NCBI RefSeq assembly: GCF_002754375.1
Contig: NZ_PEFF01000001.1
Span: 1,798,001 to 1,862,000, forward strand
Origin: Variovorax sp. 54
GTDB lineage: Bacteria > Pseudomonadota > Gammaproteobacteria > Burkholderiales > Burkholderiaceae_C
Reading direction: 5' to 3'
Length of the DNA stretch: 64,000 nt
The position numbers were made by a program, and so were the translations under genes. Below, in pieces: positions 47,968 through 63,727 of this stretch (positions are counted from its first letter, which is position 1; each line of letters starts with the position of its first letter). The notes beneath the pieces were generated by a model. That model had not been told where the DNA came from and did not search any database. It worked only from the letters and a program-made list of their open reading frames with translations.

Positions 47968-50900
47968 ATGGACATAAGCCGCCGGCAATTCTTCCGCGTG
48001 AGCAGCGCGGGCCTGATCGGCTCCAGCATCGTCGCGCTCGGCTTTTCGCCGACCGCCGCGCTGGCCGAGGCCCGCAACTTCAAGCTCGCGCGCACCACCG
48101 AGACCCGCAACACCTGCCCGTACTGCTCCGTGGGCTGCGGGCTCATCATGTACAGCCTGGGCGACAAGGCCAAGAACGTGGTGTCGGACATCCTGCACAT
48201 CGAGGGCGATGCCGACCACCCCGTGAACCGCGGCACGCTGTGCCCCAAGGGCGCGGGCCTGCTCGACTTCGTGCACAGCCCGATGCGGCTGAAGTACCCG
48301 GAAGTGCGCGAGGCCGGCAGCACCGAGTGGAAGCGCATCGGCTGGAACGAAGCGCTCGACCGCATCGCCAAGCTGCTCAAGGCCGACCGCGACGCCAACT
48401 TCCAGACCGCCAACGCCGACGGCAAGACCGTCAACCGCTGGACCAGCACCGGCATGCTCTGCGCGTCGGCCTCGTCCAACGAAACCGGCTACATCACCCA
48501 CAAGGCATTCCGCTCGACCGGAATGCTGGTCTTCGACAACCAGGCACGCGTTTGACACGGACCGACGGTGGCCAGTCTGGCCCCGACGTTCGGCAGAGGC
48601 GCAATGACCAACCATTGGCAGGACATCCAGAACGCGGATGTCGTGCTGATCATGGGCGGCAATGCCGCGGAGGCGCACCCGTGCGGCTTCAAGTGGGTCA
48701 TCGAAGCCAAGAAACAGAACAAGGCCCGCCTGGTCGTGGTCGATCCGCGCTTCACGCGGTCGGCCGCCGTGGCCGACTACTACGCGCCGATCCGCGCGGG
48801 GTCGGACATCGCGTTCCTGGCGGGGGTCCTCAACTTTCTCCTGAGCAACGACAAGATCCAGACGGAGTACGTGCGCAACTACACCAACGCGCCGTTCATC
48901 GTCGGGCCTGACTACAAGTTCGAGGACGGCCTGTTCAGCGGCTACAACGCCGAGAAGCGCAACTACGACCCCAAGTCGTGGGCCTACGCGCTCGACGAGG
49001 CCGGCATGGCCAAGGTCGACATGACCATGCAGGACCCGCAGTGCGTGCTGCAGGTCATGAAGCGGCACTATTCGCGCTACACGCCCGAGCTGGTGAGCCG
49101 CATCACCGGCACGCCGCAGGACAAGTTCCTGAAGGTGTGCGAGTACATCGCGAGCACCAGCACCAGCGGCCGCACCATGACCATCATGTATGCGCTGGGG
49201 TGGACGCAGCACAGCCAGGGCTCGCAGATGATCCGCACCGGCGCGCTCGTGCAGTTGCTGCTGGGCAACATCGGCGTGCCGGGCGGCGGCATGAACGCGC
49301 TGCGCGGCCACAGCAACATCCAGGGTCTCACCGACCTGGGGCTGCTGTCGAACTCGCTGCCGGGCTACATGTCGCTGGCGCGCGACAGCGAGCAGACGCT
49401 GGAGGACTACTACAAGACCCGTGCCCTCAAGCCGCTGCGGCCCAACCAGATGAGCTACTGGCAGAACTACCCCAAGTTCTTCGTCAGCATGCAGAAGTCG
49501 TGGTGGGGCAACGCGGCCACGGCCGAGAACGAGTGGGCCTTTCACTACCTGCCCAAGATCGACAAGCTCTACGACATCCTGCAGGCCTTCGAGCTCATGA
49601 ACCAGGGCAAGCTCAACGGCTACATCTGCCAGGGCTTCAACCCCGTGGGCTCGTTCCCCGACAAAAAGAAGATCATCGACGGGCTCTCCAAGCTCAAGTT
49701 CCTTGTCACCATCGATCCGCTGCAGACCGAAACGAGCGAGTTCTGGCGCAACTTCGGCGAGTTCAACGACGTCAAGACCACCGACATCCAGACCACGGTG
49801 TTCCGCCTGCCGTCGACCTGCTTCGCGGAAGAAGACGGCTCGCTCACCAACTCCAGCCGCTGGCTGCAGTGGCACTGGAAGGGCGCGGAGCCGCCGGGCG
49901 AGGCCAAGGGCGACATCGAGATCGTGGCCGGCATCTACAACCGCATCCGCCAGGCCTACATCAAGGACGGCGGTGCGTTCCCCGACCCGATCGTCAAGCT
50001 GACCTGGCCCTACAAGATTGCGCACTCGCCTTCGGCGCAAGAGCTGGCGATGGAATACAACGGCCGCGCGCTCACCGACCTGCTCGACCCGAAGGACCCG
50101 AGCAAGCCGCCGCTGGCCAAGGCCGGCGAACAGCTGGCGGGCTTCGGCCTGCTGCGCGACGACGGCTCCACCGCGAGCGGCTGCTGGATCTACGCTGGCG
50201 CCTGGACCCAGGCCGGCAACCAGATGGCGCGGCGCGACAACGCCGACCCGTACGGCATCGGCATGGTGCAGAACTGGGCCTGGGCCTGGCCGGCCAACCG
50301 GCGCATTCTGTACAACGGCGCCTCGACCGACCCGACCACCGGCAAGCCGTGGATCGCCCGACGCAACCTCGTGGCGTGGAACGGCAAGCAGTGGGCCGGC
50401 TCCGACGTGCCCGACATCCGCCCCGACGCCAACCCGATGGACGCCGACGCCGTGCGACCGTTCATCATGACGGCCGAAGGCGTCGCGCGGCTCTACGCGC
50501 CCACGGGCATGGCCGAAGGGCCGCTGCCCGAGCACTACGAGCCCTTCGAGTCGCCGCTGGTCAACAACCTGATGCACCCGAAGAACGACAAGGCGCGCGC
50601 CAATCCGGCGGCGCGCATCTTCAAGGGTGACCTCGAACGCCTGGGCACGCCGAAAGATTTTCCGTACGTGGCCACCAGCTACCGACTCACGGAGCACTTC
50701 CACTACTGGACCAAGAACGTGCGCACCTCGGCCATCATCCAGCCGCAGCAGTTCGTCGAGATCGGCGAAGAGCTCGCGAAGGAGAAGGGCATCGCCAACG
50801 GCGACATGGTGAAGGTGTCGAGCAAGCGCGGCTTCATCAAGGCCGTGGCGCTGGTCACCAAGCGCATCGTCGGGCTGCAGGTCGACGGCCGCACCGTGCA

Positions 50901-51045
50901 CACGGTGGGACTGCCGAACCACTGGGGCTTCGTCGGCATCGCCAAGCCGGGCTACCTGGTGAACACGCTGACACCGTTCGTGGGCGATGCGAACACGCAG
51001 ACGCCTGAGTACAAGTCGTTCACTGTGAACATCGAGAAGGCGTGA
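47968..51045 (+). CDS. fdnG: Formate dehydrogenase alpha subunit, selenocysteine-containing (FdnG/FdoG type)
   Basis: 1,025 residues if the in-frame TGA at 48553-48555 is decoded as selenocysteine (Sec196). The context (ARV-Sec-HGPTVASLAPTFGRGAM) matches E. coli FdnG, whose Sec is also residue 196. A Tat signal (SRRQFFR, residues 4-10) and a 4Fe-4S motif (NTCPYCSVGCG) precede it, and the molybdopterin domains (MGGNAAEAHP, RGHSNIQGLTD) follow. AGGAGG lies 7 nt before the ATG. It oxidises formate to CO2 in the periplasm and passes electrons through the beta and gamma subunits to quinone. A caller unaware of Sec would split this gene in two. Confidence 0.97.
48553..48584 (+). promoter_or_regulatory. 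UGA(Sec) codon and bacterial SECIS hairpin
   Basis: After TGA and 11 nt, GGTGGCCAGTCTGGCCCC (48567-48584) folds as GG-bulged T-GGCCA, loop GTC, TGGCC-CC. The distance, the bulged U and the GUC-containing loop match the minimal E. coli SECIS recognised by SelB. It lies within the coding sequence, as in all bacterial SECIS elements. Confidence 0.9.
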
Positions 51046-51086
51046 GATGAAGCGCACGCCCCTTCTCCATGACACGGCCCTGACTT

Positions 51087-51205
51087 GCCCCCTCTCCCGC
51101 GTGCGGGAGAGGGCCGGGGTGAGGGCCGACGGCGATGGAACCGCAGACAACACTTGCCAGGCTGCGGCCCTCACCCTAACCCTCTCCCGCACGCGGGAGA
51201 GGGGA
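51087..51205. repeat. REP/BIME-like paired palindrome, copy 3 (inside the fdh operon)
   Basis: Facing units CCCCCTCTCCCGCGTGCGGGAG...GGGGTGAGGG (51087-51126) and CCCTCACCC...CTCTCCCGCACGCGGGAGAGGGG (51168-51205). Located between the alpha and beta subunit genes, leaving an unusual 183-bp gap in an otherwise overlapping operon. It may shape the relative level of alpha and beta mRNA. Confidence 0.8.
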
Positions 51206-52206: not shown

Positions 52207-52826
52207 CCCGCTACTACCTTCGCCGCTACCGCGACGCCACGCGTATGAACCACTGGTTCGTCGCGATCATGTTCTTCGCGGCCGCGCTCTCGGGCCTGGC
52301 CTTCTTCCACCCGAGCCTGTTCTTCCTGAGCACGCTGTTCGGCGGCGGGCAGTGGACGCGCATCCTGCATCCCTTCATGGGCCTTCTGATGGTGCTGGGC
52401 TTCGTGTTCCTGTTCGGCGCGATGTGGCGCGAGAACATCCTGGACAGCGGCGACCGCGAGTGGGTCAAGAACGCGCCGAAGATGCTCAAGGGCGACAAGT
52501 CGGGCATGCCACCCGTCGGCAAGTACAACGCCGGGCAGAAGCTGGTGTTCTGGGCCTTCGGCATCAGCCTCTTGCTGCTGCTGGTGACGGGCTTCATGTT
52601 CTGGAGTCCGTGGTTCGTCGGCTTCTTCCCGATCCTCTTGCGGCGCATCGCGGTGGTGGTGCATGCGGTCTCGGCGGTGGTGTTGATCCTGTCGGTCATC
52701 ACGCACATCTATGCCGCGATCTGGGTCAAGGGCACGCTGCGCGCGATGACGCGGGGCACCGTCACCGAAGGATGGGCCAAGCTGAACCATCCTCTTTGGC
52801 ATCGCAAAATGACGCGTGGTGAGTGA
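52203..52826 (+). CDS. fdnI: Formate dehydrogenase cytochrome b556 (gamma) subunit
   Basis: 207 residues with four membrane spans ([73 protein letters not shown]). Histidines in the first, second and fourth spans are candidate haem b ligands. Passes electrons to quinone. Coupled to the beta subunit. Confidence 0.95.
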
Positions 52827-52836
52827 TACTGCGCCG

Positions 52837-53868
52837 ATGACGAGCCCCACCGGTACGCCGCCACCGATCCGCACCACGCGCGTCCTCGACCCCGAACAGA
52901 TCGCGATGCAAGCCGGGCGGCAGATGCCGTTCCTGCGCCTGCCGGTGCGCGCCGCGGTGTTCTCCGACCGGCAATTGCGATTGCGCCAGCTCACGGCTTC
53001 GCACCCGATGCGCGAGTACCTGATCTTCATCGCCGACCTTGCGCAGGCGCAGCACCAGGTGCTGCAGGACTACCCGGCCGTCGCGCTCCCCGAATCCGAA
53101 GCGCTCGAGGCCGCCGCGAAAGTGCTCAAGCCGCCGATGCCCGCCTTCGGCTGGACGCGCGATGCGGTGTGGCGCGTGCAGCTGCGGCGCCTGCTCGGCC
53201 TCTTTCGCGCGCGCCTGCCCGAAGGCCCTGCACGCGACACGCTCGACCGCGTGGTGGCCGCCGACGACGCCTGGCTCGACCAGCAGGCCGACCTGCTCTC
53301 GCGCCGCATCATGTTCGGGCTCGACCTGGCCGCAGCGCCGCTGATCGCCTCTGGTCTCCAGGCCTACTGGACGCAGCTCGTGCTGCAGGTGGCCGATCGC
53401 AATGGCGAGAGCATTTTCGGCCGCACCGATCCCGGCAACGAATGCCCGTGCTGCGGCAGCGCGCCCACCGCGAGCATCACGCGCATCGGCGCCGACGAGG
53501 CGGGCTTTCGCTACCTGCACTGCTCGCTGTGCAGCACCGAGTGGCACTACGTGCGCATCAAGTGCACGCACTGCGAAAGCACCAAGGGCATCCATTTCGA
53601 ATCGCTCACGCCGGAACCCGGCATCGAGCTGCCCGCGACCGGCGCACGCGAAGGCGCGGTGAAGGCCGAGTGCTGTGACAGCTGCGGCCACTACTTGAAG
53701 CAGATCGCGATGGAGCGAGACCCCGAGGTCGAGCCCGTCGCCGACGACCTCGCCAGCGTCACGCTCGACCTGCTGGTGTCCGAGGCCGGCCACCAGCGCA
53801 GCGGCCACAACCTGATGCTGCTGTTCGGCGACCCCGAAGAAATCCTCGACGACGGCGGAGGCGGCTGA
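52837..53868 (+). CDS. fdhE: Formate dehydrogenase accessory protein FdhE
   Basis: 343 residues. C-terminal zinc-ribbon/rubredoxin-like part with four Cys pairs (CPCCGS, CSLCSTEW, CTHCES, CCDSCGHY), which bind iron in E. coli FdhE. Required for assembly of respiratory formate dehydrogenases before Tat export. Start chosen at the ATG 52837; GTG codons at 52816 or 52819 are alternatives overlapping the gamma gene. The stop overlaps the selA start. Confidence 0.94.
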   Translation: MTSPTGTPPPIRTTRVLDPEQIAMQAGRQMPFLRLPVRAAVFSDRQLRLRQLTASHPMREYLIFIADLAQAQHQVLQDYPAVALPESEALEAAAKVLKPPMPAFGWTRDAVWRVQLRRLLGLFRARLPEGPARDTLDRVVAADDAWLDQQADLLSRRIMFGLDLAAAPLIASGLQAYWTQLVLQVADRNGESIFGRTDPGNECPCCGSAPTASITRIGADEAGFRYLHCSLCSTEWHYVRIKCTHCESTKGIHFESLTPEPGIELPATGAREGAVKAECCDSCGHYLKQIAMERDPEVEPVADDLASVTLDLLVSEAGHQRSGHNLMLLFGDPEEILDDGGGG

Positions 53869-55316
53869 TGGCAGCGCCCGAAGAGTCCGTGGTCCACGGC
53901 TCGACGGCAAGGCCCCAGGATCTGCCTTCTGTCGATCAACTGCTGCGCGCCGATGCGCCGCGCGCCCTCTTGGCCGAACACGGCCGCACCCTCGTTGTCG
54001 GTGAAGCGCGCGCGCTGCTCGAAGGGCTTCGCGCGCGGGCCGTGGCCGGCACGCTCGCCGCGTCGGAAGTGCAGACCGAAGCGCTCGCCACTGCACTCAC
54101 AGCTCGTGTCCAGGACCGCCTCGCACCGCGCATGCGCGCCGTGTTGAACCTCACCGGCACCGTCATCCACACCAACCTCGGCCGCGCGCTGCTGGCCGAT
54201 GCCGCATTGCAGCGCCTGCTTGCGGTGATGACCTCGCCCAACAACCTCGAGTACGACCTCGCCACCGGCAGCCGCGGCGACCGCGATTCGCTGGTCGAGG
54301 AGCTGCTGTGCACCATCACCGGCGCCGAGGCCGCGACGGTGGTCAACAACAATGCGGCCGCGGTGCTGCTCACCATCGCGGCGCTCGCGCGCGAGCGCGA
54401 AGTGATCGTCTCGCGCGGCGAGCTGGTCGAGATCGGCGGCGCCTTCCGCATGCCTGATGTGATGGCCAGCGCCGGTGCGCGCATGGTCGAAGTGGGCACC
54501 ACCAACCGCACGCATCCGCAGGACTACGAACGCGCCATCAACGCGCAGACCGCGCTCGTGATGAAGGTGCACACCAGCAACTACGCGGTGCAGGGCTTCA
54601 CCGCCGCGGTCGACGAAGCCACGCTCGCCGGCATCGCGCATGCGCGCGGCGTACCGCTGGCCACGGATCTCGGCAGCGGGTCGCTCGTCGACCTCGCGCA
54701 CTACGACCTGCCGCGCGAGCCGCTGCCGCAGGAAATGCTCGCGGCCGGCTGCGACGTGGTCACCTTCTCCGGCGACAAGCTGCTGGGCGGCCCGCAGGCC
54801 GGGCTCATCGTGGGCAGCAAGGAGGCCGTGGGCCGCATCCGCAAGTTCCCGATGAAGCGCGCGCTGCGCATGAGCAAGCTGCCGCTTGCGGCGCTCGAAG
54901 CGACGCTCTCGCTCTACCTGCGGCCCGAGCGCCTGGCGAAAGACCTGCCGACGCTGCGCCTGCTCACACGCCCCGCCGATGCGATCCGCGAGATGGCCGA
55001 GGCGCTCTTGCCTGCCGTTCAAGCTGCTGTGTCGCCGCGCTTCACCGTCGAGGTGGTGCCGCTGCTCGGCCAGATCGGCTCGGGCTCGCTGCCGGTCGAG
55101 CGTCTGCCTTCGGCCGGCCTCGCACTCGCACCGGCCGGCACCGCAAAGAAAGGCCTGGGCACGGCGCTCGACAAGCTCGCCACCGCCCTGCGCGGCCTGC
55201 CGCTACCGGTGATCGGCCGCATCGCGGAAGACCGCCTTCTTCTCGATCTGCGCTGCCTCGAAGACAGCGCCCCCTTCACGGCCCAGCTCGCCGAATTGCG
55301 CGAGCGGCTGGAGTAG
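53868..55316 (+). CDS. selA: L-seryl-tRNA(Sec) selenium transferase
   Basis: 482 residues. PLP lysine Lys304 in FSGDKLLGGPQAG, with NLTGTVIHTNLGRA, NNNAAAVLL and SRGELVEIGGAFR all typical of SelA. Converts Ser-tRNA(Sec) to Sec-tRNA(Sec) with selenophosphate from SelD. The start overlaps the fdhE stop (TGATG), so synthesis is tied to the formate dehydrogenase operon. Confidence 0.97.
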   Translation: MAAPEESVVHGSTARPQDLPSVDQLLRADAPRALLAEHGRTLVVGEARALLEGLRARAVAGTLAASEVQTEALATALTARVQDRLAPRMRAVLNLTGTVIHTNLGRALLADAALQRLLAVMTSPNNLEYDLATGSRGDRDSLVEELLCTITGAEAATVVNNNAAAVLLTIAALAREREVIVSRGELVEIGGAFRMPDVMASAGARMVEVGTTNRTHPQDYERAINAQTALVMKVHTSNYAVQGFTAAVDEATLAGIAHARGVPLATDLGSGSLVDLAHYDLPREPLPQEMLAAGCDVVTFSGDKLLGGPQAGLIVGSKEAVGRIRKFPMKRALRMSKLPLAALEATLSLYLRPERLAKDLPTLRLLTRPADAIREMAEALLPAVQAAVSPRFTVEVVPLLGQIGSGSLPVERLPSAGLALAPAGTAKKGLGTALDKLATALRGLPLPVIGRIAEDRLLLDLRCLEDSAPFTAQLAELRERLE

Positions 55317-55354
55317 CAGTCCCTTCCCTCAACCTCTACCCTCAGGAGAAAGCG

Positions 55355-56470
55355 ATGAATCCCCTCGACGTGCTCGCCGGTATCGAAACGGAAACGCTGC
55401 AGCCCTTGGCCTTGCGCACCGACAGCGAGGCTCGCTTTCCGCGAGAGACGACCCAGGCGCTGGGCAAGGCGGGCCTGCTCGGGCTGATCTCGGCCACGTC
55501 GGTCGGCGGCCAGGGCCTGGGCTTGAAGGAAGCGGCGCAGGTGGTCTCGCGCATCGCGCAGACCTGCCCCTCCACCGCGATGGTGGTGTGCATGCACTAC
55601 TGCGCCACCGCCGTGCTGGAACAACAGGGCCCCGAGGCCGTGCGCAAGGCCATCGCCCAAGGCAAGCACCTGGGCACCCTCGCTTTTTCCGAAGCCGATT
55701 CGCGCAGCCACTTCTGGGCGCCCACCGGCACCGCGCGCGCGGACGGCGCGAACGTGGTGCTCGATGCGCGCAAGAGCTGGGTCACCTCGGCCTTCGAGGC
55801 CGACAGCTATGTCTGGTCGAGCAAGCCGCTCGCAGCCGAAGGCGCGAGCACGCTGTGGCTGGTCGATGCGAAGTCCGATGGCCTCACTCAACCCGGCCGC
55901 TTCGACGGGCTGGGCCTGCGCGGCAATGCCTCAACGCCGATCACCGCGAAGGGCGTTCGCATCGGCGCCGACGCACGCCTGGGCGAAGACGGCAAGGGCT
56001 TCGACACGATGATGGGCGTGGTGCTGCCCTGGTTCTCGGCGCTCAGCGCGGCGTGTTCCGTCGGCCTCATGGAAGGCGCATTGAGCCGCGCCATCGGCCA
56101 TGTGAGTCAGACGAAGCATGTGCACCTCGATTCGTCGCTGGCCGACCTGCCCACCATCCGCGCTTATCTCGCGCGCGCCCGCATCAAGACCGACATGGTG
56201 CAGACGCTGCTCGACGACACCGTGGCCGCCATCGGCGCGGGCCGCGCCGACACCATGCTGCGCGTGCTCGAAGTGAAAGCCGCAGCCGCCGAAACCGCGC
56301 TCGAAGTGACCGACATCGCCATGCGCGTGTGCGGCGGCGCGGCCTTCCGCAAGGAGGCCGGCATCGAGCGCCTGTTCCGCGATGCGCGCGCCTCGAGCGT
56401 GATGGCGCCCACCTCCGACGTGCTCTACGACTTCATCGGCAAGGCCATCACCGGCCTGCCCCTGTTCTGA
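55355..56470 (+). CDS. Acyl-CoA-dehydrogenase-fold flavoprotein lacking the canonical catalytic Glu
   Basis: 371 residues with an AGGAG box upstream. The ACAD fold is clear: N-terminal helices, a middle beta domain (TLAFSEADSRSHFWAP, WVTSAFEADSYVW) and the C-terminal bundle with MRVCGGAAFRKEAGIERLFRDARA. Where dehydrogenases have the Y-E-G-T catalytic Glu, this has M-A-P-T-S (residues 350-354). Loss of that base is seen in ACAD-fold flavin monooxygenases such as DszC. It lies between selA and selB, followed 14 bp later by the PhnD-like gene. A role in oxidising an organic Se or S compound is inference. Confidence 0.75.
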   Translation: MNPLDVLAGIETETLQPLALRTDSEARFPRETTQALGKAGLLGLISATSVGGQGLGLKEAAQVVSRIAQTCPSTAMVVCMHYCATAVLEQQGPEAVRKAIAQGKHLGTLAFSEADSRSHFWAPTGTARADGANVVLDARKSWVTSAFEADSYVWSSKPLAAEGASTLWLVDAKSDGLTQPGRFDGLGLRGNASTPITAKGVRIGADARLGEDGKGFDTMMGVVLPWFSALSAACSVGLMEGALSRAIGHVSQTKHVHLDSSLADLPTIRAYLARARIKTDMVQTLLDDTVAAIGAGRADTMLRVLEVKAAAAETALEVTDIAMRVCGGAAFRKEAGIERLFRDARASSVMAPTSDVLYDFIGKAITGLPLF

Positions 56471-56483
56471 AAGGCCCATCGCC

Positions 56484-57344
56484 ATGTCCGAACCGGTATT
56501 GATCATGGGCGCAGTCGCCTACGCGCCCAAGGTCGTCACCATCTGGGAAGGCTTCAAGGCCTTCTTCATGAAGAACGGCCTGCCCTTCGACTACGTGCTG
56601 TATTCCAACTACGAAAGCCAGGTCGAGGCGCAGTTCGACGGCACGCTGCACCTGGCATGGAACTCGCCGCTGGCCTGGGTGCGCGCCGACCGCATCGCGC
56701 GCAGCCGCGGCCAGCAGGTGCAGGCCGTGGCGATGCGCGACACCGACTGCGACCTGCGCTCGGCCATCGTCGTGCGCGCCGACAGCCCGGTGCAGACGCT
56801 GGCCGACCTGCGCGGCAAGACGGTGGGCATGGGCGCGCTCGATTCGCCGCAGGCCACGCTGATTCCGCTCGACCACCTGCGCAGCGAAGGCTTGGTGACG
56901 GCACGCGACTTCCAGGCGCGCTACTTCGATGTGCTCGGCGGCAAGCACGGCGACCACATCGGCGGCGAGCGCGATGCGGCCGTGGCGCTGAGGGCGGGCG
57001 AAGTCGATGCCTGCTGCCTCATCGATGGCAACCACCTGGCCTTCGGCCTGGACGGCACGCTGCCTTCGGGCAGCACGCGCGTCATCGCGCGCACCGGCGC
57101 CTACGACCACTGCAACTTCACCACCAGCCCCGACGCGCCCGCCGAGCTGATCGAGCGCTTCGTCGCGCTGCTGATGGCGATGCGCTGGGACGACCCGCAG
57201 GTGCGCCCGCTGCTCGAACTCGAAGGCCTGCGCGAATGGCGTGCCGGCCGCACCAGCGGTTATGCGCTGCTCGAACGCGCGGTGGACGACGAGAACTTCT
57301 ACAGCCGCGATGGCGCCATCCTCAACCCCGACTATCGATATTGA
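56484..57344 (+). CDS. PhnD-like substrate-binding-fold protein without a signal peptide
   Basis: 286 residues. It resembles phosphonate/phosphite-type binding proteins ([54 protein letters not shown]), but starts directly in the first beta strand ([13 protein letters not shown]) with no export signal, so it should be cytoplasmic. No permease or ATPase is adjacent. Binding-protein folds are also used by enzymes, for example the DszB desulfinase and MqnA. Paired with an ACAD-fold protein inside the sel operon, an enzymatic role is plausible but unproven. Its 3' end overlaps the next gene by 35 bp. Confidence 0.75.
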
Positions 57345-58524
57345 GTCGCTGGGCCTCGACCAGGGCGCCCTGCTGCTCATTCGCCGCGCGCTGGCCGAAC
57401 GGCCGGTGGGGGGCGAGCTGCAGGTGCGTGGATGCTCGCCGGACTGGGAGATGCACCTCGAAGCCTGGTGCCGCAGCCAGGGGCATCCGCTGCGCTTCGA
57501 CACCGTGGAGGGACGGCCGCAAGCCCGCATCACACGCGGCCCGCATGCCGAAGGCCGGTGGCGCGATGCGCAGGCGACCGGCACGGCGCTCGGCGACATC
57601 AACGGCGCGCCCGCCGACGACGCCGAAGCAGGCTGGGGGCTGGCCGCGCGCGGCGCCACGGTCGAGGCCGGCAGCCCGAATTTCTTCTTTGCGCTGCACC
57701 GCCGCCACGAGCTCTGGGCCGCGACGGCGGGCGAGCTCTACCGGCAGGCCGCGGCCGCCCAATGGGACCCGGCCACCGCCATCGAGTGGGATGCCGAGTT
57801 CGACCTGCCGCCCGCCATCGAAGCCGCCGTGATACAGGTGATGACGTACCTCATCGAGAACGAGAACGCCGCGCTGCTCGTGCCTGCGCGGCACCTCGGG
57901 CAGATCCACCCGCACTTTCGCGAGGTGCTGCAACTGCTGGCGCTGCAGTGCGCCGACGAGGCGCGGCATGTCGAGGTGTTCACGCGGCGCGCCACGCTGC
58001 GCGGCCACGAGCCTGCGCTGTCGACGGCCGGCGGGCAGGCGTCGCTGCGCACGCTGTTCGATGCACCGGATTTCTCGGTCGCCACCTTCCTGCTCGCCGT
58101 GCTGGGCGAGGGCAGCTTCGTGAACCTGCTGAACTTCCTGCAGGCGAACGCGCCCGACCCGGTAACGCGGCAGATCGCGCGGCTCACCGCGCGCGACGAG
58201 GCGCGGCACGTGGCCTTCGGCATGGCGCATCTGGAATACCGGCTCTCGGTGCAGCCCGACTACCAGGCCACGTTGCGCAACGCGATCGAGGTGCGCTACG
58301 ACGCGCTCGCCAGCACCGCGGGGCTCAACGAGGAAGTGTTCGATGCGCTGGTGCTGCTGGCGGCCGGCGAGTTGTCGCCAGGCGCCGTCGCGCGCGGCCA
58401 CGCGGCCGTGCAGCAGCTGCAGCGCGACATGGCCGCGGGCCGGCGTGCGCGCCTCGCGCGGCTGGGCTTCGGGCGCGACGAGGCGGAGCGGCTTTCCGCG
58501 CTGCACACGCGCAACTTCATGTGA
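57310..58524 (+). CDS. TusA-like / ferritin-like di-iron fusion protein
   Basis: 404 residues from the ATG at 57310, inside the end of the previous gene. Residues about 9-65 look like a TusA/SirA domain ([33 protein letters not shown]), but the Cys-Pro of active TusA is Asp17-Gln18. Residues about 165-320 form a ferritin-like four-helix bundle with carboxylates at E183/E185, ExxH at 217-220, E267, and ExxH at 297-300, a complete di-iron ligand set. I know of no named protein with this architecture. It is followed by selB 13 bp on. Confidence 0.75.
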
Positions 58525-58537
58525 CGAGAACGACACG

Positions 58538-60448
58538 ATGATCATCGGCACCGCCGGCCACATCGACCACGGCAAGACCACGCTGGTGCGCGCGCTCACG
58601 GGCGTCGACACCGACCGCCTGCCCGAGGAGAAACGGCGCGGCATCTCCATCGAGCTGGGCTACGCCTACCTGCACGCGCCCGACGGCGTATCGCTGGGCT
58701 TCGTCGACGTGCCGGGCCACGAGCGCCTGCTGCACACCATGCTGGCCGGCGCCACCGGCATCGACCACGCGCTGCTGGTGGTGGCAGCCGACGACGGCGT
58801 GATGCCGCAGACGCGCGAGCACCTCGCCGTGGTCGCGCTGCTCGGCGTGCGCGAGGCCACGGTGGCGCTCACCAAGACCGACCGGCTCGATGCCGCCACG
58901 CGCGATGCACGGCTGGCCGAGGTGCGCGCCGAGATCGCTGCGCTGCTCGCGCCCACGCCCTTCGCGCAGGCGCCGGTGTTCCCGGTGGCCGCGACCACCG
59001 GCGAGGGCATCGACGCGCTGCGCGAACGGCTGCTGGCCGTGGCGCGCGGCAACCCGACGCGCGCCGACGACCTCGCGTTCCGGCTCGCGGCCGATCGCGC
59101 CTTCACGCTGTCCGGTGTCGGCACCGTGGTGACCGGCACGGTCCACAGCGGCACGGTGCGCATCGGCGACGAACTGACGCTCGCGCCGCGTGCGCGCCCG
59201 GTGCGCGTGCGCGGCATCCACGCGCAGAACCGGGCCGCCGAGACGGCGCATGCGGGCCAGCGCTGCGCGCTCGCATTGGCCGGGCTCGCGAAGGACGAGG
59301 TGCACCGCGGCGACTGGGTCTGCGCGCCCGCCATCGCGCTGGCCACCGCGCGCATCGACGTACTGCTCACGCTGTCGCCCGACGAGGCGCGCGCCCTGCG
59401 CTCGGGCGCCACGGTGCACGCACACTTGGGCGCCAGCGACGTGATGGCCTCGGTCGCGCTGCTCGACCGCGAGGCACTGGCACCGGGCGAGACGGCGCTG
59501 GCGCAGTTGGTGCTGCGCGAACCGGTCGGCGCCTGGCACGGCGATCGCGGCGTGCTGCGCGACGCGTCGGCCAGCCGCACCGTGGCCGGCGTGCGCGTGC
59601 TCGACCCCTTCGCGCCGGTGCGCTACCGGCGCACGCCCGAACGGCTGCGCACGCTCGCGGCCTGGGCCGTCGACGAGCGCGATGCCTGCGTCGCCGCACT
59701 GCTGCACCACGCGCCGCTCGGCCTCGACACCGCGCGCCTCGCGCAAGCGCTCTCGCTGCCCGGCGAGGCCGCCCTGCCGCTGCCCGCCGATGCAGTGCGC
59801 ATCGGCGCGACCGCCATCGCGCAGTCGCACCTCGACACGCTGCAGACACAGATCGTCGACCGCCTTTCTGACTTTCACCGCGACGCGCCCGACGAGGTCG
59901 GCCCCGATGCGCGACGCCTCAAGCGGCTGGTCGCCCCGCGCACCGACGACGCGCTGTGGCGCCATGCGATCGACGCGCTGCTGGCGCGTGCGGCGCTCGC
60001 GCGCAGCGGCACCTGGCTGCACCTGCCCGACCATGCGGCGCGGCTCGGCGAGGCCGAACAGAAGCTCGCGCAGAAGCTGCTGCCCATGCTGGCCGACGGT
60101 GGCTTCGACCCGCCGTGGGTGCGCGACCTCGCGAAAGATTGCGCCGTGGGCGAGCCGCTGGTGCGCCAGACGCTCGCGAGCCTCGCGCGGCGCGGCGAGA
60201 CCTTCCAGGTGGTGAAAGACTTGTACTATCCGCTCGCGACCGTCGAACGGCTGGCCGCGCTCGCGCGCGACTGCCTCGACGGGCCCGAAGGCCTGCAGGC
60301 CGCGAGCTTTCGCGACGCCACCGGCCTGGGCCGCAAGCGCGCGATCCAGCTGCTGGAATTTTTCGACCGCGTGGGTTTCACGCGGCGGGTGAAGGACGCG
60401 CACTTGCTGCGCCCCGACACCCCGTTGTTCGACGCGATGCAGCGATGA
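58538..60448 (+). CDS. selB: Selenocysteine-specific elongation factor SelB
   Basis: 636 residues. G1 motif [10 protein letters not shown], effector region [14 protein letters not shown]3 DVPGHE and G4 TKTD identify a translational GTPase. Domains 2-3 follow, and the C-terminal winged helices (about 430-636), which bind SECIS RNA, end in [22 protein letters not shown]. Delivers Sec-tRNA to the ribosome at the UGA of fdnG. Confidence 0.97.
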
Positions 60449-60476
60449 CAGGGTCATCGCAAGCACCGTGGTTCAT

Positions 60477-60569
60477 GGGGGGGAATCGTCCCTGGTGGGG
60501 CGGCTGGGCTTCAAACCCAGTGGGTGGCGCCAGTCGTCGCCGGGAGGGTTCGACTCCCTCTCCCTTCCG
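60477..60569 (+). tRNA. selC: tRNA-Sec (anticodon UCA)
   Basis: 93 nt. An 8-bp acceptor stem (GGGGGGGA with TCCCTTCC, two G-U pairs), anticodon stem CTGGG/CCCAG with loop CTTCAAA giving anticodon TCA, a long variable arm, and T-arm GAGGG-TTCGACT-CCCTC. The D-arm GGTGGGGC lines up base for base in length with E. coli selC. The discriminator is G; CCA is not fully encoded (GCCC follows). It lies 28 bp after selB. Confidence 0.95.
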
Positions 60570-60589
60570 CCCGCTTCTGCTGTCTTGCG

Positions 60590-60702
60590 CCTTCCCCTTT
60601 CGGGGGAAGGTTGGGATGGGGGCATGCGGCGTTCGCATGATGGCTGTGCCTGATCGATCGCCGCGTGCCCCCACCCCTGCCCTCCCCCAGCGGGGGAGGG
60701 AG
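60590..60702. repeat. REP/BIME-like paired palindrome, copy 4
   Basis: Units CCTTCCCCTTTCGGGGGAAGG...GGGATGGGGG and GTGCCCCCACCCCTGCC...CCCCCAGCGGGGGAGGG face each other around a spacer with GATCGATCGCCGC. Same subfamily as copy 2 at 19176. It lies between tRNA-Sec and the convergent selD gene, where it may also end transcription. Confidence 0.75.
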
Positions 60703-60714
60703 AAACACGCGGGC

Positions 60715-61794
60715 CTACGGCAGCACGACGAGGCCCGGCGCACCGGCCTCGACGCGGCCAATCACCGCGGCCTGCCCGAAGCCCTCCTGCCGGAAGATTT
60801 CGAGCACTGCCTCGGCCACCTCAGGCGCGCAGCTCACGAGCAAGCCACCCGAAGTCTGCGGATCAGTCACCAGCGCCTGCGCGGTGGCCGGCAGCCCTTC
60901 GTGCAATTGCACATCGCCGCCATACCCCGCCCAGTTGCGCCCCGACGCACCCGTGACCAGCCCGCCGGCCGCCATCGCGATCACGTTGTCGAGCAACGGC
61001 ACGCGCGACCACTCGACCACCGCCGTGAGCCCCGCGCCGCGCGCGAGTTCGAGCGTGTGACCGGCCAGACCGAAGCCGGTGACGTCGGTCAGCGCATGCA
61101 CGCCGTCGAGCGCCGAGAGCGCGATGCCGGGCGTGTTGAGCTTGGTGGTGTTCTCGATGAGCTGGCGGTAGCCGGCCTCGGACAGCTGCTGCTTCTTGAG
61201 CGCCGCCGACAGCACGCCCACGCCCAGCGGCTTGCCGAGCACCAGCACGTCGCCGGCCTGCGCGTCGGCGTTACGCCGCACGCGCTTGGGGTGCACCAGC
61301 CCCATCGCGACCAGCCCGTAGATCGGCTCGACCGAATCGATGGTGTGGCCGCCCGCAATGGGAATGCCGGCCGCGCGGCACACGTCCTGCCCGCCGCGCA
61401 CGATCTCGGCGATGACTTCCACTGGCAGCTGGTTGATCGGCATGGCGACCAGCGCCAGCGCCATGATCGGGCGTCCGCCCATCGCATACACGTCGCTGAT
61501 CGCGTTGGTCGCGGCGATGCGGCCGAACTCGTAGGGGTCGTCCACGATGGGCATGAAGAAGTCGGTGGTGGCGATCAGCGCCTGCTCGTCGTTGAGCCGG
61601 TAGACTGCCGCGTCGTCGGCGGTCTCGATGCCGACCATGAGTTCGGGCGGAATCAGCCCGCCCGCATGGTTCTTGAGGATCTGCGACAGCACGCCCGGCG
61701 CAATCTTGCAGCCGCAGCCGCCCCCATGCGAGAAGCTGGTGAGCCGCAGCGGCGCCAACGGATTCAGGAGCTTGGAAGGTGCGGCTTCGATCAT
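60715..61794 (-). CDS. selD: Selenide, water dikinase (selenophosphate synthase)
   Basis: 359 residues. The catalytic N-terminus is HGGGCGCKIAPGVL with Cys27 and Lys30, corresponding to Cys17 and Lys20 of E. coli SelD. ATP/metal motifs include ADDAAVYRL, TTDFFMPIVDDPYEFGRIAATNAISDVYAMGG and GGHTIDSVEPIYG. Makes selenophosphate for SelA. Catalytic residue is Cys, not Sec. An ATG at 61794 was used; a TTG 11 codons upstream is an alternative and neither has a clear ribosome site. It is transcribed toward selB/tRNA-Sec. Confidence 0.97.
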   Translation of the reverse strand: MIEAAPSKLLNPLAPLRLTSFSHGGGCGCKIAPGVLSQILKNHAGGLIPPELMVGIETADDAAVYRLNDEQALIATTDFFMPIVDDPYEFGRIAATNAISDVYAMGGRPIMALALVAMPINQLPVEVIAEIVRGGQDVCRAAGIPIAGGHTIDSVEPIYGLVAMGLVHPKRVRRNADAQAGDVLVLGKPLGVGVLSAALKKQQLSEAGYRQLIENTTKLNTPGIALSALDGVHALTDVTGFGLAGHTLELARGAGLTAVVEWSRVPLLDNVIAMAAGGLVTGASGRNWAGYGGDVQLHEGLPATAQALVTDPQTSGGLLVSCAPEVAEAVLEIFRQEGFGQAAVIGRVEAGAPGLVVLP

Positions 61795-61905
61795 GGCGGC
61801 GGTTCGGTCGAATGGAACAAGCCGCAATTATCGAAGCCCGCGCCGCCGTCTGCCCGCGCGCCTGAACACACCCTTTTCTTTCTCCACTGAACGCTTCATC
61901 ACATC

Positions 61906-62769
61906 ATGCAAACGAAACAAACCGTGTCCCGGCTCGCGATCGCGCTGGCCCTGTCCCTCACCGCCGTGGGCGCCTTCGCCCAGGGCGTGCTGCGCGTGTC
62001 GGCCATTCCCGACGAGGCGCCCACCGAGCTGCAGCGCAAGTTCACGCCGCTGGGCGACTACCTGAAGAAGGAAACCGGCATGGACGTGCAGTTCACGCCC
62101 GTGACCGACTACGCCGCCGTGGTCGAGGGCCTGGCGACGAACAAGATCGACATGGCCTGGCTCGGCGGCTTCACCTTCGTGCAGGCGCGCATCCGCACCA
62201 ACGGCGGTGCGGTGCCGATCGTGCAGCGCGCGGAAGACGAGGTGTTCACCAGCAAGTTCATCGTGCCGATCGACAGCCCTGCCAAGACCCTGGCCGACCT
62301 GAAGGGCAAGACCTTCGCCTTCGGCGCGCCCTCGTCCACCTCGGGCAGCCTGATGCCGCGCTACTTTTTGCTGCAGGCCGGCATCAACCCCGAGAAGGAC
62401 TTCAAGACCGTCGCGTTCTCGGGCGCACACGACGCCACCGTGGCCTTCGTGGCCGCCTCGCGTGCCGAAGCCGGCGTGCTCAACGCGTCGGTGTGGGACA
62501 AGCTGGTCGAGTCGAAGAACCCCAACGCCGCCAAGGTGCGCGTGCTCGCGACCACGCCGACCTACTACGACTACAACTGGACGGTGCGCCCGGGCATGGA
62601 CGCGGCACTGCAGAAGAAGCTGACCGACGCCTTCCTGAAGCTCGACCCGGCCAACCCGGCGCACAAGGAGATCATGGCGCTGCAGCGCGCGAGCAAGTTC
62701 ATCCCCACCAAGTCGTCGAACTACGACGGCATCGAGACGGCGGGCAAGTCGGCAGGCCTGATCAAGTGA
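61906..62769 (+). CDS. PhnD-type ABC binding protein, putative selenate/selenite importer
   Basis: 287 residues. Signal peptide ends near GAFAQG; the mature part shows RVSAIPDEAPTELQRKFTPLGDYL, TDYAAVVEGLATNKIDMAWLGG and FGAPSSTSGSLMPRY. This family of PhnD relatives is annotated in protein family databases as putative selenate transport because it neighbours selD; experimental proof is limited. It is divergent from selD and followed by an ATPase and a PhnE-like permease. Phosphonate or phosphite transport is the alternative. Confidence 0.85.
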   Translation: MQTKQTVSRLAIALALSLTAVGAFAQGVLRVSAIPDEAPTELQRKFTPLGDYLKKETGMDVQFTPVTDYAAVVEGLATNKIDMAWLGGFTFVQARIRTNGGAVPIVQRAEDEVFTSKFIVPIDSPAKTLADLKGKTFAFGAPSSTSGSLMPRYFLLQAGINPEKDFKTVAFSGAHDATVAFVAASRAEAGVLNASVWDKLVESKNPNAAKVRVLATTPTYYDYNWTVRPGMDAALQKKLTDAFLKLDPANPAHKEIMALQRASKFIPTKSSNYDGIETAGKSAGLIK

Positions 62770-62792: not shown

Positions 62793-62890
62793 CCCTCACC
62801 CCAACCCTCTCCCGCCAGCGGGAGAGGGGGCCAACAGCCGGGCCCCGCTTTGCTCCCTCTCCCGCTGGCGGGAGAGGGCCGGGGTGAGGG
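62793..62890. repeat. REP/BIME-like paired palindrome, copy 5 (reversed arrangement)
   Basis: Units CCCTCACCCCAACCCTCTCCC...GGGAGAGGG (62793-62829) and CTCCCTCTCCC...GGGAGAGGGCCGGGGTGAGGG (62853-62890). The GGTGAGGG tags point outward here, opposite to copies 1 and 3. It lies between the binding-protein and ATPase genes of the transporter. Confidence 0.75.
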
Positions 62891-62914: not shown

Positions 62915-63727
62915 GTGAGCTTCTCCCTCGAAGCCATCGGCGTCGTCCACCCCAACGGCCAGCGCGCGCTGTCCGGCGTGACGCTGGCCGCGCACAACGG
63001 CGAGCGCATCGCCGTCATCGGGCCTTCGGGCGCGGGCAAGACCACGCTGCTGCGTGTGCTCGGCGCGGCGCTGCGGCCCGGCGAGGGCGAGGTGCAGGCG
63101 CTGGGCCAGCACCCGTGGCGGTTGTCGGCGCGTGCGCTCAAGCAGCTGCGCGCGCGCATCGGCACCGTGCACCAGGCGCCGCCGATCGCGCCACGCCTGC
63201 GCGTGGTCACGGCCGTGCTCGCGGGCCGGCTCGGCCAGTGGTCGGTGCCGCGCGCGCTGGGTTCGCTTTTCTATCCGTCCGACATCGCAGGCGCGCACGA
63301 GGCGCTGACCCGGCTCGCGCTCGAAGACCGGCTGTTCGACCGCTGCGACCGCCTCTCGGGCGGCCAGCTGCAGCGCGTGGGCATCGCGCGCGTGCTGTAC
63401 CAGCGCCCCGCGCTGCTGCTGGCGGACGAGCCGGTGTCGGCGCTCGACCCCACGCTGTCGCACGCGGCCGTGGGCCAGCTGGTCGCACAGAGCGAATCGA
63501 CCGGCGCCACGCTGGTCGCGTCGCTGCACGCAGTCGATCTGGCGCTGCGCTGGTTTCCACGCATCGTGGGCATGCGCGACGGGCAGGTCGCCTTCGACCT
63601 GCCGGCCGCCGAGGTGACGCCGGCGCTGCTCGAGGCGCTCTATGCGAGCGAAGGCGGCGTGGCGACGCAGGGGCCGCTGCCGGTCGGCACCGCCGAGCCC
63701 GCCTTCCATAGGCCGGACTGCCCGTGA
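62915..63727 (+). CDS. PhnC-type ABC transporter ATP-binding protein
   Basis: 270 residues from a GTG start at 62915, the only start giving the family N-terminus [19 protein letters not shown]. Walker [12 protein letters not shown], signature LSGGQLQR, Walker [13 protein letters not shown] and H-loop ASLHAVDLA are complete. Partner of the PhnD-like binding protein and the permease that follows. The stop overlaps the permease start (TGATG). Confidence 0.92.

Follow-up and report, generated by a model that had tools for sequence, protein, structure and literature searches.

What do three genes of undescribed function do in the middle of a bacterial selenium locus? The question is raised by a 64,000-nucleotide stretch of DNA from Variovorax sp. 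54 (hereafter the window; positions 1798001–1862000 of a 6.64-Mb single-contig chromosome), in which three consecutive genes, designated X, Y, and Z, separate selA from selB. The five genes concerned are given below in window numbering.

53868..55316, + strand: selA, upstream partner (TIGR00474, 577 bits; cut-off 268)
55355..56470, + strand: X, acyl-CoA-dehydrogenase-fold flavoprotein, 371 amino acids (family matches, alignment)
56484..57344, + strand: Y, leaderless cytoplasmic protein with the PF12974 binding-protein fold, 286 amino acids (family matches, alignment)
57310..58524, + strand: Z, PF11583 protein with a TusA-like N-terminal domain, 404 amino acids (homologs' starts, family matches)
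58538..60448, + strand: selB, downstream partner (named by sequence and position, without a family scan)

An earlier note, made from the letters of this DNA, had suggested that the three genes may have a role in selenium metabolism. We find that the cassette moves as a unit, recurs beside selenium genes in independent arrangements, and is carried by genomes that nearly always contain such genes. Very probably, X-Y-Z is an accessory to selenium metabolism that uses oxygen and has so far gone undescribed.

X, Y, and Z travel as one unit

Scanning of 84,980 genomes with an alignment of Z retrieved 356 relatives, and the 80 best of these were retained. Twelve more stretches were added by place, three of them at places already present, which gave 92 Z loci; conservation counts reported below (90 rows, 92 rows, and so on) retain the duplicate loci. 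Y adjoins Z in 90 of the 92 loci, and the remaining two have Z at a contig end. X is also present, in the order X-Y-Z, in 80 loci. The three genes thus co-occur with one another, as had been anticipated, and their association is above chance. The pairwise distances agree well among X, Y, and Z (correlations of 0.91–0.92). Among 80 Streptomycetaceae genomes tested, Y occurs in exactly the nine that contain Z; the genome searches for Z and Y were confined to scoring the top candidates from a permissive first pass.

Ten loci carry Y-Z without X, nine from Caulobacterales metagenome-assembled genomes (MAGs; loci L025–L028, L030, L031, L033, L036, and L037) and one from a Burkholderiales MAG (L062). 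At a threshold of E <= 1e-60, no match to X was present in 10 Caulobacterales genomes (all MAGs) or in the Burkholderiales MAG, and the same search detected a match in seven other genomes. Because Caulobacterales MAGs carry Y-Z alone, X is dispensable to the unit; this observation, together with the overlap between the two genes, identifies Y-Z as the core. Caulobacterales Z proteins are nested within a Burkholderiales clade in a quick Z tree, and for this reason a transfer between the two classes is likely, with X probably lost then or later. Spread of the cassette on plasmids was rejected, since a tblastn search of 72,556 plasmid records (from which records very near the window's genome may be excluded) yielded no match to Z.

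The cassette recurs beside selenium genes in independent arrangements

Four loci were dropped before linkage was counted and the tree was built (L103, L104, and L109, which occupy the same places as L035, L055, and L087, and L049, a near-copy of L048). Of the 88 distinct loci that remained, 15 did not extend far enough for linkage to be judged. Within ~11.5 kb of Z, measured between midpoints, selA, selB, selD, or mnmH was found in 38 of the 73 judged loci. By our estimate, chance would produce such linkage about once in 100 loci in a genome of several megabases, a figure that must be read in light of the arrangements that relatives share.

The linked loci comprise at least six arrangements and are distributed across Pseudomonadota and Actinomycetota. 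The order seen in the window, selA-X-Y-Z-selB, is found in 17 loci from Variovorax, Rhizobacter, Pseudacidovorax, Roseateles, Ideonella, and one Hydrogenophaga; another Hydrogenophaga shows the same order with transporter genes inserted between Z and selB. Xenophilus-type loci and a second, distant Hydrogenophaga lineage have X-Y-Z-selD, Methyloversatilis has selA-selB-gap-X-Y-Z-selD, and Azoarcus has selA followed after 3.2 kb by X-Y-Z. Two further loci place X-Y-Z convergent with selB-selA or with selD-mnmH-selB-selA. Four layouts were observed in Streptomycetaceae: selA-selB-selD-X-Y-Z, X-Y-Z convergent with selD-selB-selA, X-Y-Z-fdn-selA-selB, and X-Y-Z-fdn followed by selD-selB on the opposite strand. 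The linked state requires at least 10 changes on the Z tree, six of them forced by well-supported branches, with gains and losses not separated. These results are strong evidence that the cassette recurs beside sel genes in independent arrangements and is not there by an accident of operon structure.

The cassette is tied to selenium through SelD

Occurrence of Z and selD was compared in samples of three groups, whose labels were deduced from the named locus or genome on which each sample was centred and whose p values ignore relatedness within the group. Among 249 Streptomycetaceae genomes, nine contain Z and 32 contain selD, and all nine Z genomes fall within the 32 (hypergeometric p = 3e-9; p = 2.5e-8 once the centre genome is removed). 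In six of the nine, selD lies no more than 10.5 kb from Z. The other two groups, Caulobacteraceae and Burkholderiales, are considered below.

Fifty of the 80 kept Z genomes, 45 of which were picked because no sel gene was seen near Z, were then tested for selD, selA, and mnmH. They include all eight Caulobacteraceae, one of the nine Streptomycetaceae, and at least two of the five Burkholderiales Z genomes. Matches over the cut-off were obtained for selD in 46 carriers, mnmH in 39, and selA in 27. At least one of the three genes is present in 49, which, along with the independent arrangements, bears out the selenium role first suggested. Four carriers lack selD: Ideonella azotifigens and three MAGs, of which two have selA and the third mnmH.

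The earlier note had framed this role around selenocysteine (Sec), and here the results diverge from it. Carriers with no selA match are nearly as common as those with one (23 versus 27, in a sample weighted towards unlinked loci), an outcome that the note had named as telling against its proposal, but 19 of these 23 have both selD and mnmH. A Sec-specific role was therefore rejected; the tie is to selenium via SelD and not to Sec alone. These same carriers place the step at or before SelD, or else point to a separate use of the SelD product. In four carriers (G045, G046, G043, and G048, the genomes of L082, L083, L078, and L085), which represent Chloroflexota, Myxococcota, Acidobacteriota, and one further bacterium, selD contains an in-frame TGA and probably encodes a Sec-containing SelD.

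Sequence features of X, Y, and Z

X matches PF00441, PF02770, and PF02771, all above cut-off, and so retains the acyl-CoA-dehydrogenase fold originally assigned to it. Where the YEGT motif would supply the catalytic Glu, X reads MAPT; position 351 is Ala or Gly in 80 of 81 rows and a gap in the other. At what we take to be the alternative Glu position of isovaleryl-CoA dehydrogenase, mapped by eye, X reads Pro/variable/Phe. Cys71 and His81 are invariant in the alignment and Cys326 is nearly so; Thr144 and Lys140 are likewise invariant, and a flavin adenine dinucleotide (FAD) site is predicted from the family fold. The best family for X is NF049984 (Rv1679/FadE16 acyl-CoA dehydrogenase), which is matched by 30 of 30 aligned relatives; X itself scores 406 bits, below the curated cut-off of 600. 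X shares its superfamily fold with DszC of the 4S pathway, but the score against the DszC model is 55 bits (equivalog cut-off 850), and DszC is, judged by sequence, a distant relative only. A second X-like protein, encoded away from the cassette in Massilia (L122, genome G027), scores 265 bits and is 31% identical to X.

Y belongs to PF12974 and has no visible leader, in agreement with its previous description as a PhnD-fold protein without a signal peptide. Its best family, NF049985 (Rv1680, substrate-binding-protein-like), is matched by 34 of 34 relatives, and Y scores 224 bits against a curated cut-off of 400. Lys16, Glu44, His155-Gly-Asp157-His158, Glu162, and Asp208-His209-Cys210 are invariant in 90 rows. 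A profile of 34 Y proteins compared with sequences in the PDB matched phosphite-, phosphonate-, and phosphate-binding proteins with E down to 4e-13 and, weakly, the arsenite-binding protein AioX (E 0.13). None of the 20 PDB sequences matched up to E = 10 is DszB, an enzyme with a Cys/His/Arg active site, so the kinship between Y and DszB that had been suggested receives no sequence support. The window encodes a secreted PF12974 protein as well, as part of a putative selenium transporter of the ATP-binding cassette (ABC) type.

61906..62769, + strand: secreted PF12974 protein, TIGR04553 "putative selenate ABC transporter substrate-binding protein" (369 bits; cut-off 250)
62915..63727, + strand: phnC-like ABC ATPase of the same putative transporter (TIGR02315, 207 bits; under the cut-off of 266)

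Y scores 45 bits with the TIGR04553 model, below its cut-off, and is 26% identical to the secreted protein over 238 aligned columns. The secreted protein keeps the pocket motifs SSTSG and GAHDA, whose Ser-Thr-Ser and His residues we take to be the oxyanion ligands of secreted PhnD-type proteins. Both motifs are lost in Y: in the pairwise alignment, DSPQ replaces SSTS, E-R replaces A-H, and a stretch inserted relative to the TIGR04553 protein carries the invariant His155, Asp157, and His158. Y therefore shares the fold of PhnD, PtxB, AioX, and the TIGR04553 binding proteins but does not fit the profile of a secreted PhnD-type protein; it is leaderless, its oxyanion pocket residues are replaced, and it has gained the inserted HGDH-containing stretch along with DHC. 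The Y gene of one Caulobacter MAG (L026:9166–10023) contains an in-frame TAG at codon 134, which reflects a sequencing error or a pseudogene; a Sec codon was rejected, since the stop is TAG and does not fall at Cys210.

Z scores 34 bits with PF11583 (AurF), above the cut-off of 29.6, and 32 of 34 relatives match the family at E <= 0.01. Glu183, Glu185, Glu217, His220, Glu267, Glu297, and His300 are invariant in 92 rows; the diiron ligand set Glu, ExxH, Glu, ExxH is present and invariant. The extra His that we take to be part of the AurF motif is not seen in Z, and Z is remote from solved structures (best E 0.013). The TusA match at the N-terminus is weak in Z itself (15.8 bits; cut-off 28.6) and clearer in its relatives (18 of 34 at E <= 0.01, best 2e-7). 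At the position of the CPxP nucleophile, Asp occupies 81 of 92 rows and Cys none. Z thus resembles AurF-type diiron oxygenases in its ligand motifs but differs from them in being fused to a TusA-like domain that lacks the sulfur-carrying Cys. The fusion of TusA-like and ferritin-like parts recognized earlier holds, with the TusA-like half resting on the weaker match.

Genes neighbouring the cassette

A Pfam scan of 40 genes that neighbour the cassette in 29 loci, 25 of which show no sel gene near Z, indicated no other pathway. Recurring neighbours are formate dehydrogenase partners (two Streptomyces loci), transglutaminase-like genes (two related loci), and mnmH beside selD. The others have unlike functions, among them a sulfotransferase, major facilitator superfamily (MFS) and ABC transporters, a glycosidase, prephenate dehydrogenase, DJ-1, a MerR regulator, and single genes for a CoA-transferase and a methyltransferase. 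Sulfatase-domain proteins lie near the cassette in two loci, and three of the 40 neighbours (two in L056, one in L114) have no Pfam match.

In a clustering of the neighbours, short-chain dehydrogenases came from seven loci and an MFS family of the sugar-transporter type from four; genes assigned by eye to the LysR type occur in four loci as well. We take all three as members of very large families and not as partners. The MFS gene directly follows Z on the opposite strand in two loci (L034:5302–6633 and L035:11227–12561) and lies 3–5 kb upstream in the Caulobacterales loci L026 and L027, at ~5.8–7.1 kb. It is possibly a substrate carrier, or its recurrence is chance; we know of no selenium meaning for it.

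Proposed role and alternative explanations

From the unit, its linkage, and its co-occurrence with selenium genes, all of which are observed, we infer a substrate, a reaction, and a direction (supply or use). Oxidation is suggested by the O2-activating type of centre in Z and the flavoprotein fold of X. Y, with its cytoplasmic location and rebuilt pocket, would act as a partner in binding or conversion of the selenium compound; Y and Z would form the core of the module, to which X is additional. Release of selenium from an organic compound by X-Y-Z is possible. We favour, at slightly less than an even chance, an O2-dependent accessory module that provides SelD with selenium drawn from an unusual source, perhaps an organic one. 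Such a supply route would be optional, and the TIGR04553-PhnC transporter is a candidate importer for it. A shade more tentative is the proposal that Y-Z with X lies at the heart of a selenium pathway that depends on O2 and is as yet undescribed, which would either free organic selenium for SelD or turn selenophosphate into a new compound.

Several observations weigh against a dedicated supply of selenium to SelD. No sel gene is nearby in 35 of the 73 judged loci. The earlier note had regarded homologs found mostly apart from sel genes as telling against its proposal; the outcome is divided, with unlinked loci slightly outnumbered by linked ones. The linkage label is clustered on the Z tree (10 changes versus a shuffled mean of 24.6), so the loci are not independent draws. 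Among 199 Caulobacteraceae genomes, Z occurs in eight and selD in 92, with an overlap of seven (p = 0.02; 0.04 without the centre genome); the eighth carrier, a MAG, has selA. Among 399 Burkholderiales genomes, Z occurs in five and selD in 283, and the complete overlap (five of five, p = 0.18) proves little. The expected association with sel genes beyond background is therefore upheld in Streptomycetaceae but is not significant in Burkholderiales alone. Most SelD users lack the cassette. Ideonella azotifigens shows none of selD, selA, and mnmH; its cassette is broken up between small contigs, and the absence of these genes may be due to incomplete assembly or be genuine, which would make it a counter-example. 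The broader X and Y families, whose models are the best for the window's proteins even though these fall below the cut-offs, include the Mycobacterium pair Rv1679/Rv1680 (NCBIfam names). The two genes are presumably adjacent in M. tuberculosis, which we take to be without selD, and to our knowledge the pair has no tie to Z or to selenium. The recurring MFS gene belongs on the same side, and the present data do not fix whether the cassette supplies or consumes selenium.

The main alternative turns on this direction. X-Y-Z might use the selenophosphate made by SelD for an undescribed selenium small molecule, cofactor, or modification, which would constitute a further SelD-dependent trait beside Sec, selenouridine (SeU), the selenium-dependent molybdenum hydroxylase (SDMH) cofactor, and selenoneine. 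We consider this unlikely, yet it deserves more weight than the explanations that follow. Just two of the 46 selD-bearing carriers (the MAGs G009 and G011) lack both selA and mnmH, which counts mildly against it; this test of a sole use is weak because few genomes have SelD but neither Sec nor SeU in any case. Moreover, no tailoring enzyme recurs among the 40 scanned neighbours, in which the CoA-transferase and the methyltransferase each appear once.

Less probable again is a protective or sensing function, in which the cassette would oxidize reduced selenium (selenide, selenols) that is in excess or misdirected, in air, with Y binding or sensing it, and would thereby render Sec and SeU synthesis O2-tolerant. 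The O2-using enzyme type (diiron) in carriers drawn mostly from aerobic genera of soil and water accords with such a function, as does the presence of the arsenite-binding AioX among the PF12974 relatives of Y, weak as that match is. However, the 40 neighbours include no recurring gene for efflux or stress, LysR-type genes in four loci notwithstanding, and most SelD-bearing Burkholderiales manage without the cassette.

Formate dehydrogenase, or formate/O2 physiology, could also define the neighbourhood, with sel genes present for the selenoprotein FdnG; fdn genes indeed lie near the cassette in Variovorax-type and several Streptomyces loci. We regard this as improbable, because the XYZ-selD loci of the Xenophilus and Hydrogenophaga types contain no selA, selB, or fdn in the stretches examined, and the 19 carriers with selD and mnmH but without selA point the same way. 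Release of inorganic sulfur or selenium exactly as in the 4S pathway, with X in the role of DszC and Y in that of DszB, is the least credible explanation and very improbable indeed, even though X has the DszC superfamily fold and lacks the dehydrogenase Glu.

Selenium accessory genes have been predicted from context before, namely YedE, YedF, LysR_Se, and DUF3343, according to the available part of PMC5322559. The evidence for a selenium role of X-Y-Z is of the same type, linkage to SelD and to selenium users, but X, Y, and Z belong to none of these families. The terms "acyl-CoA", "ferritin", "phosphonate", and "PhnD" are absent from the available text of that paper, and the X and Y families are unmentioned in the available portions of the selenium papers PMC5322559, PMC9312934, PMC13188914, and PMC2432076. 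NCBIfam descriptions of the two families contain no selenium remark. A full-text literature search, within the text portions it returned, gave no description of the trio and no experimental selenium phenotype. A 2026 review states, in the part available, that no specific high-affinity selenium transport system has yet been identified in prokaryotes (PMC13188914). Bacterial selenium acquisition is thus unsettled, and the cassette provides a concrete, easily knocked-out entry point to it: a portable three-gene unit that accompanies selenium genes across phyla and lies beside a candidate selenium transporter. Whether the cassette supplies SelD or uses its product, selenium biochemistry would extend to diiron enzymes and to a binding-protein fold that works inside the cell, turned into the cytoplasmic selenium-handling partner of a diiron enzyme.

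Organization of the Variovorax locus

The remaining selenium and formate dehydrogenase features of the window are as follows.

47968..51045, + strand: fdnG, Sec-containing formate dehydrogenase alpha subunit (ATG at 47968, in-frame TGA at 48553–48555, Sec insertion sequence (SECIS))
52816..53868, + strand: fdhE (TIGR01562, 237 bits; cut-off 188)
60476..60571, + strand: tRNA-Sec (selC)
60715..61827, - strand: selD (TIGR00476, 428 bits; cut-off 125)

The order on the + strand is fdnG, fdnH, fdnI, fdhE, selA, X, Y, Z, selB, tRNA-Sec, and the coordinates confirm the single-strand run read earlier. An Rfam match to SECIS_3 at 48550–48608 spans the in-frame TGA of fdnG. Intergenic distances are 38 bp (selA-X), 13 bp (X-Y), -35 bp (Y-Z, an overlap), 13 bp (Z-selB), and 27 bp (selB-tRNA). 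The gaps of under 40 bp originally ascribed to the whole run thus apply from selA to tRNA-Sec but not to the fdnG-fdnH gap, which measures 183 bp. The start of Z was placed at ATG 57310, inside the end of Y, because homologs start there; a longer mechanical open reading frame from GTG 57241 was rejected as the gene on the same grounds. No sigma-70-like promoter was found in 55000–60900, and the two terminator-like sites in this region, one per strand, do not exceed the number in shuffled sequence.

The PhnD/PhnC-type transporter (TIGR04553) adjoins selD and is divergent from it. TIGR04553 transporter genes also occur near XYZ-selD in Hydrogenophaga (L071, L072, and L074) and between Z and selB in L023. 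A further reading frame, which begins at 63724 after the phnC-like gene, runs off the window end, and mnmH lies ~1.4 kb beyond the edge, at ~65400–66461 in window numbering. A 37-nucleotide palindromic repeat (CCCTCTCCCGC...GCGGGAGAGGG) is present in four copies, two in the fdnG-fdnH gap (51078–51204) and two between the TIGR04553 gene and phnC (62793–62879).

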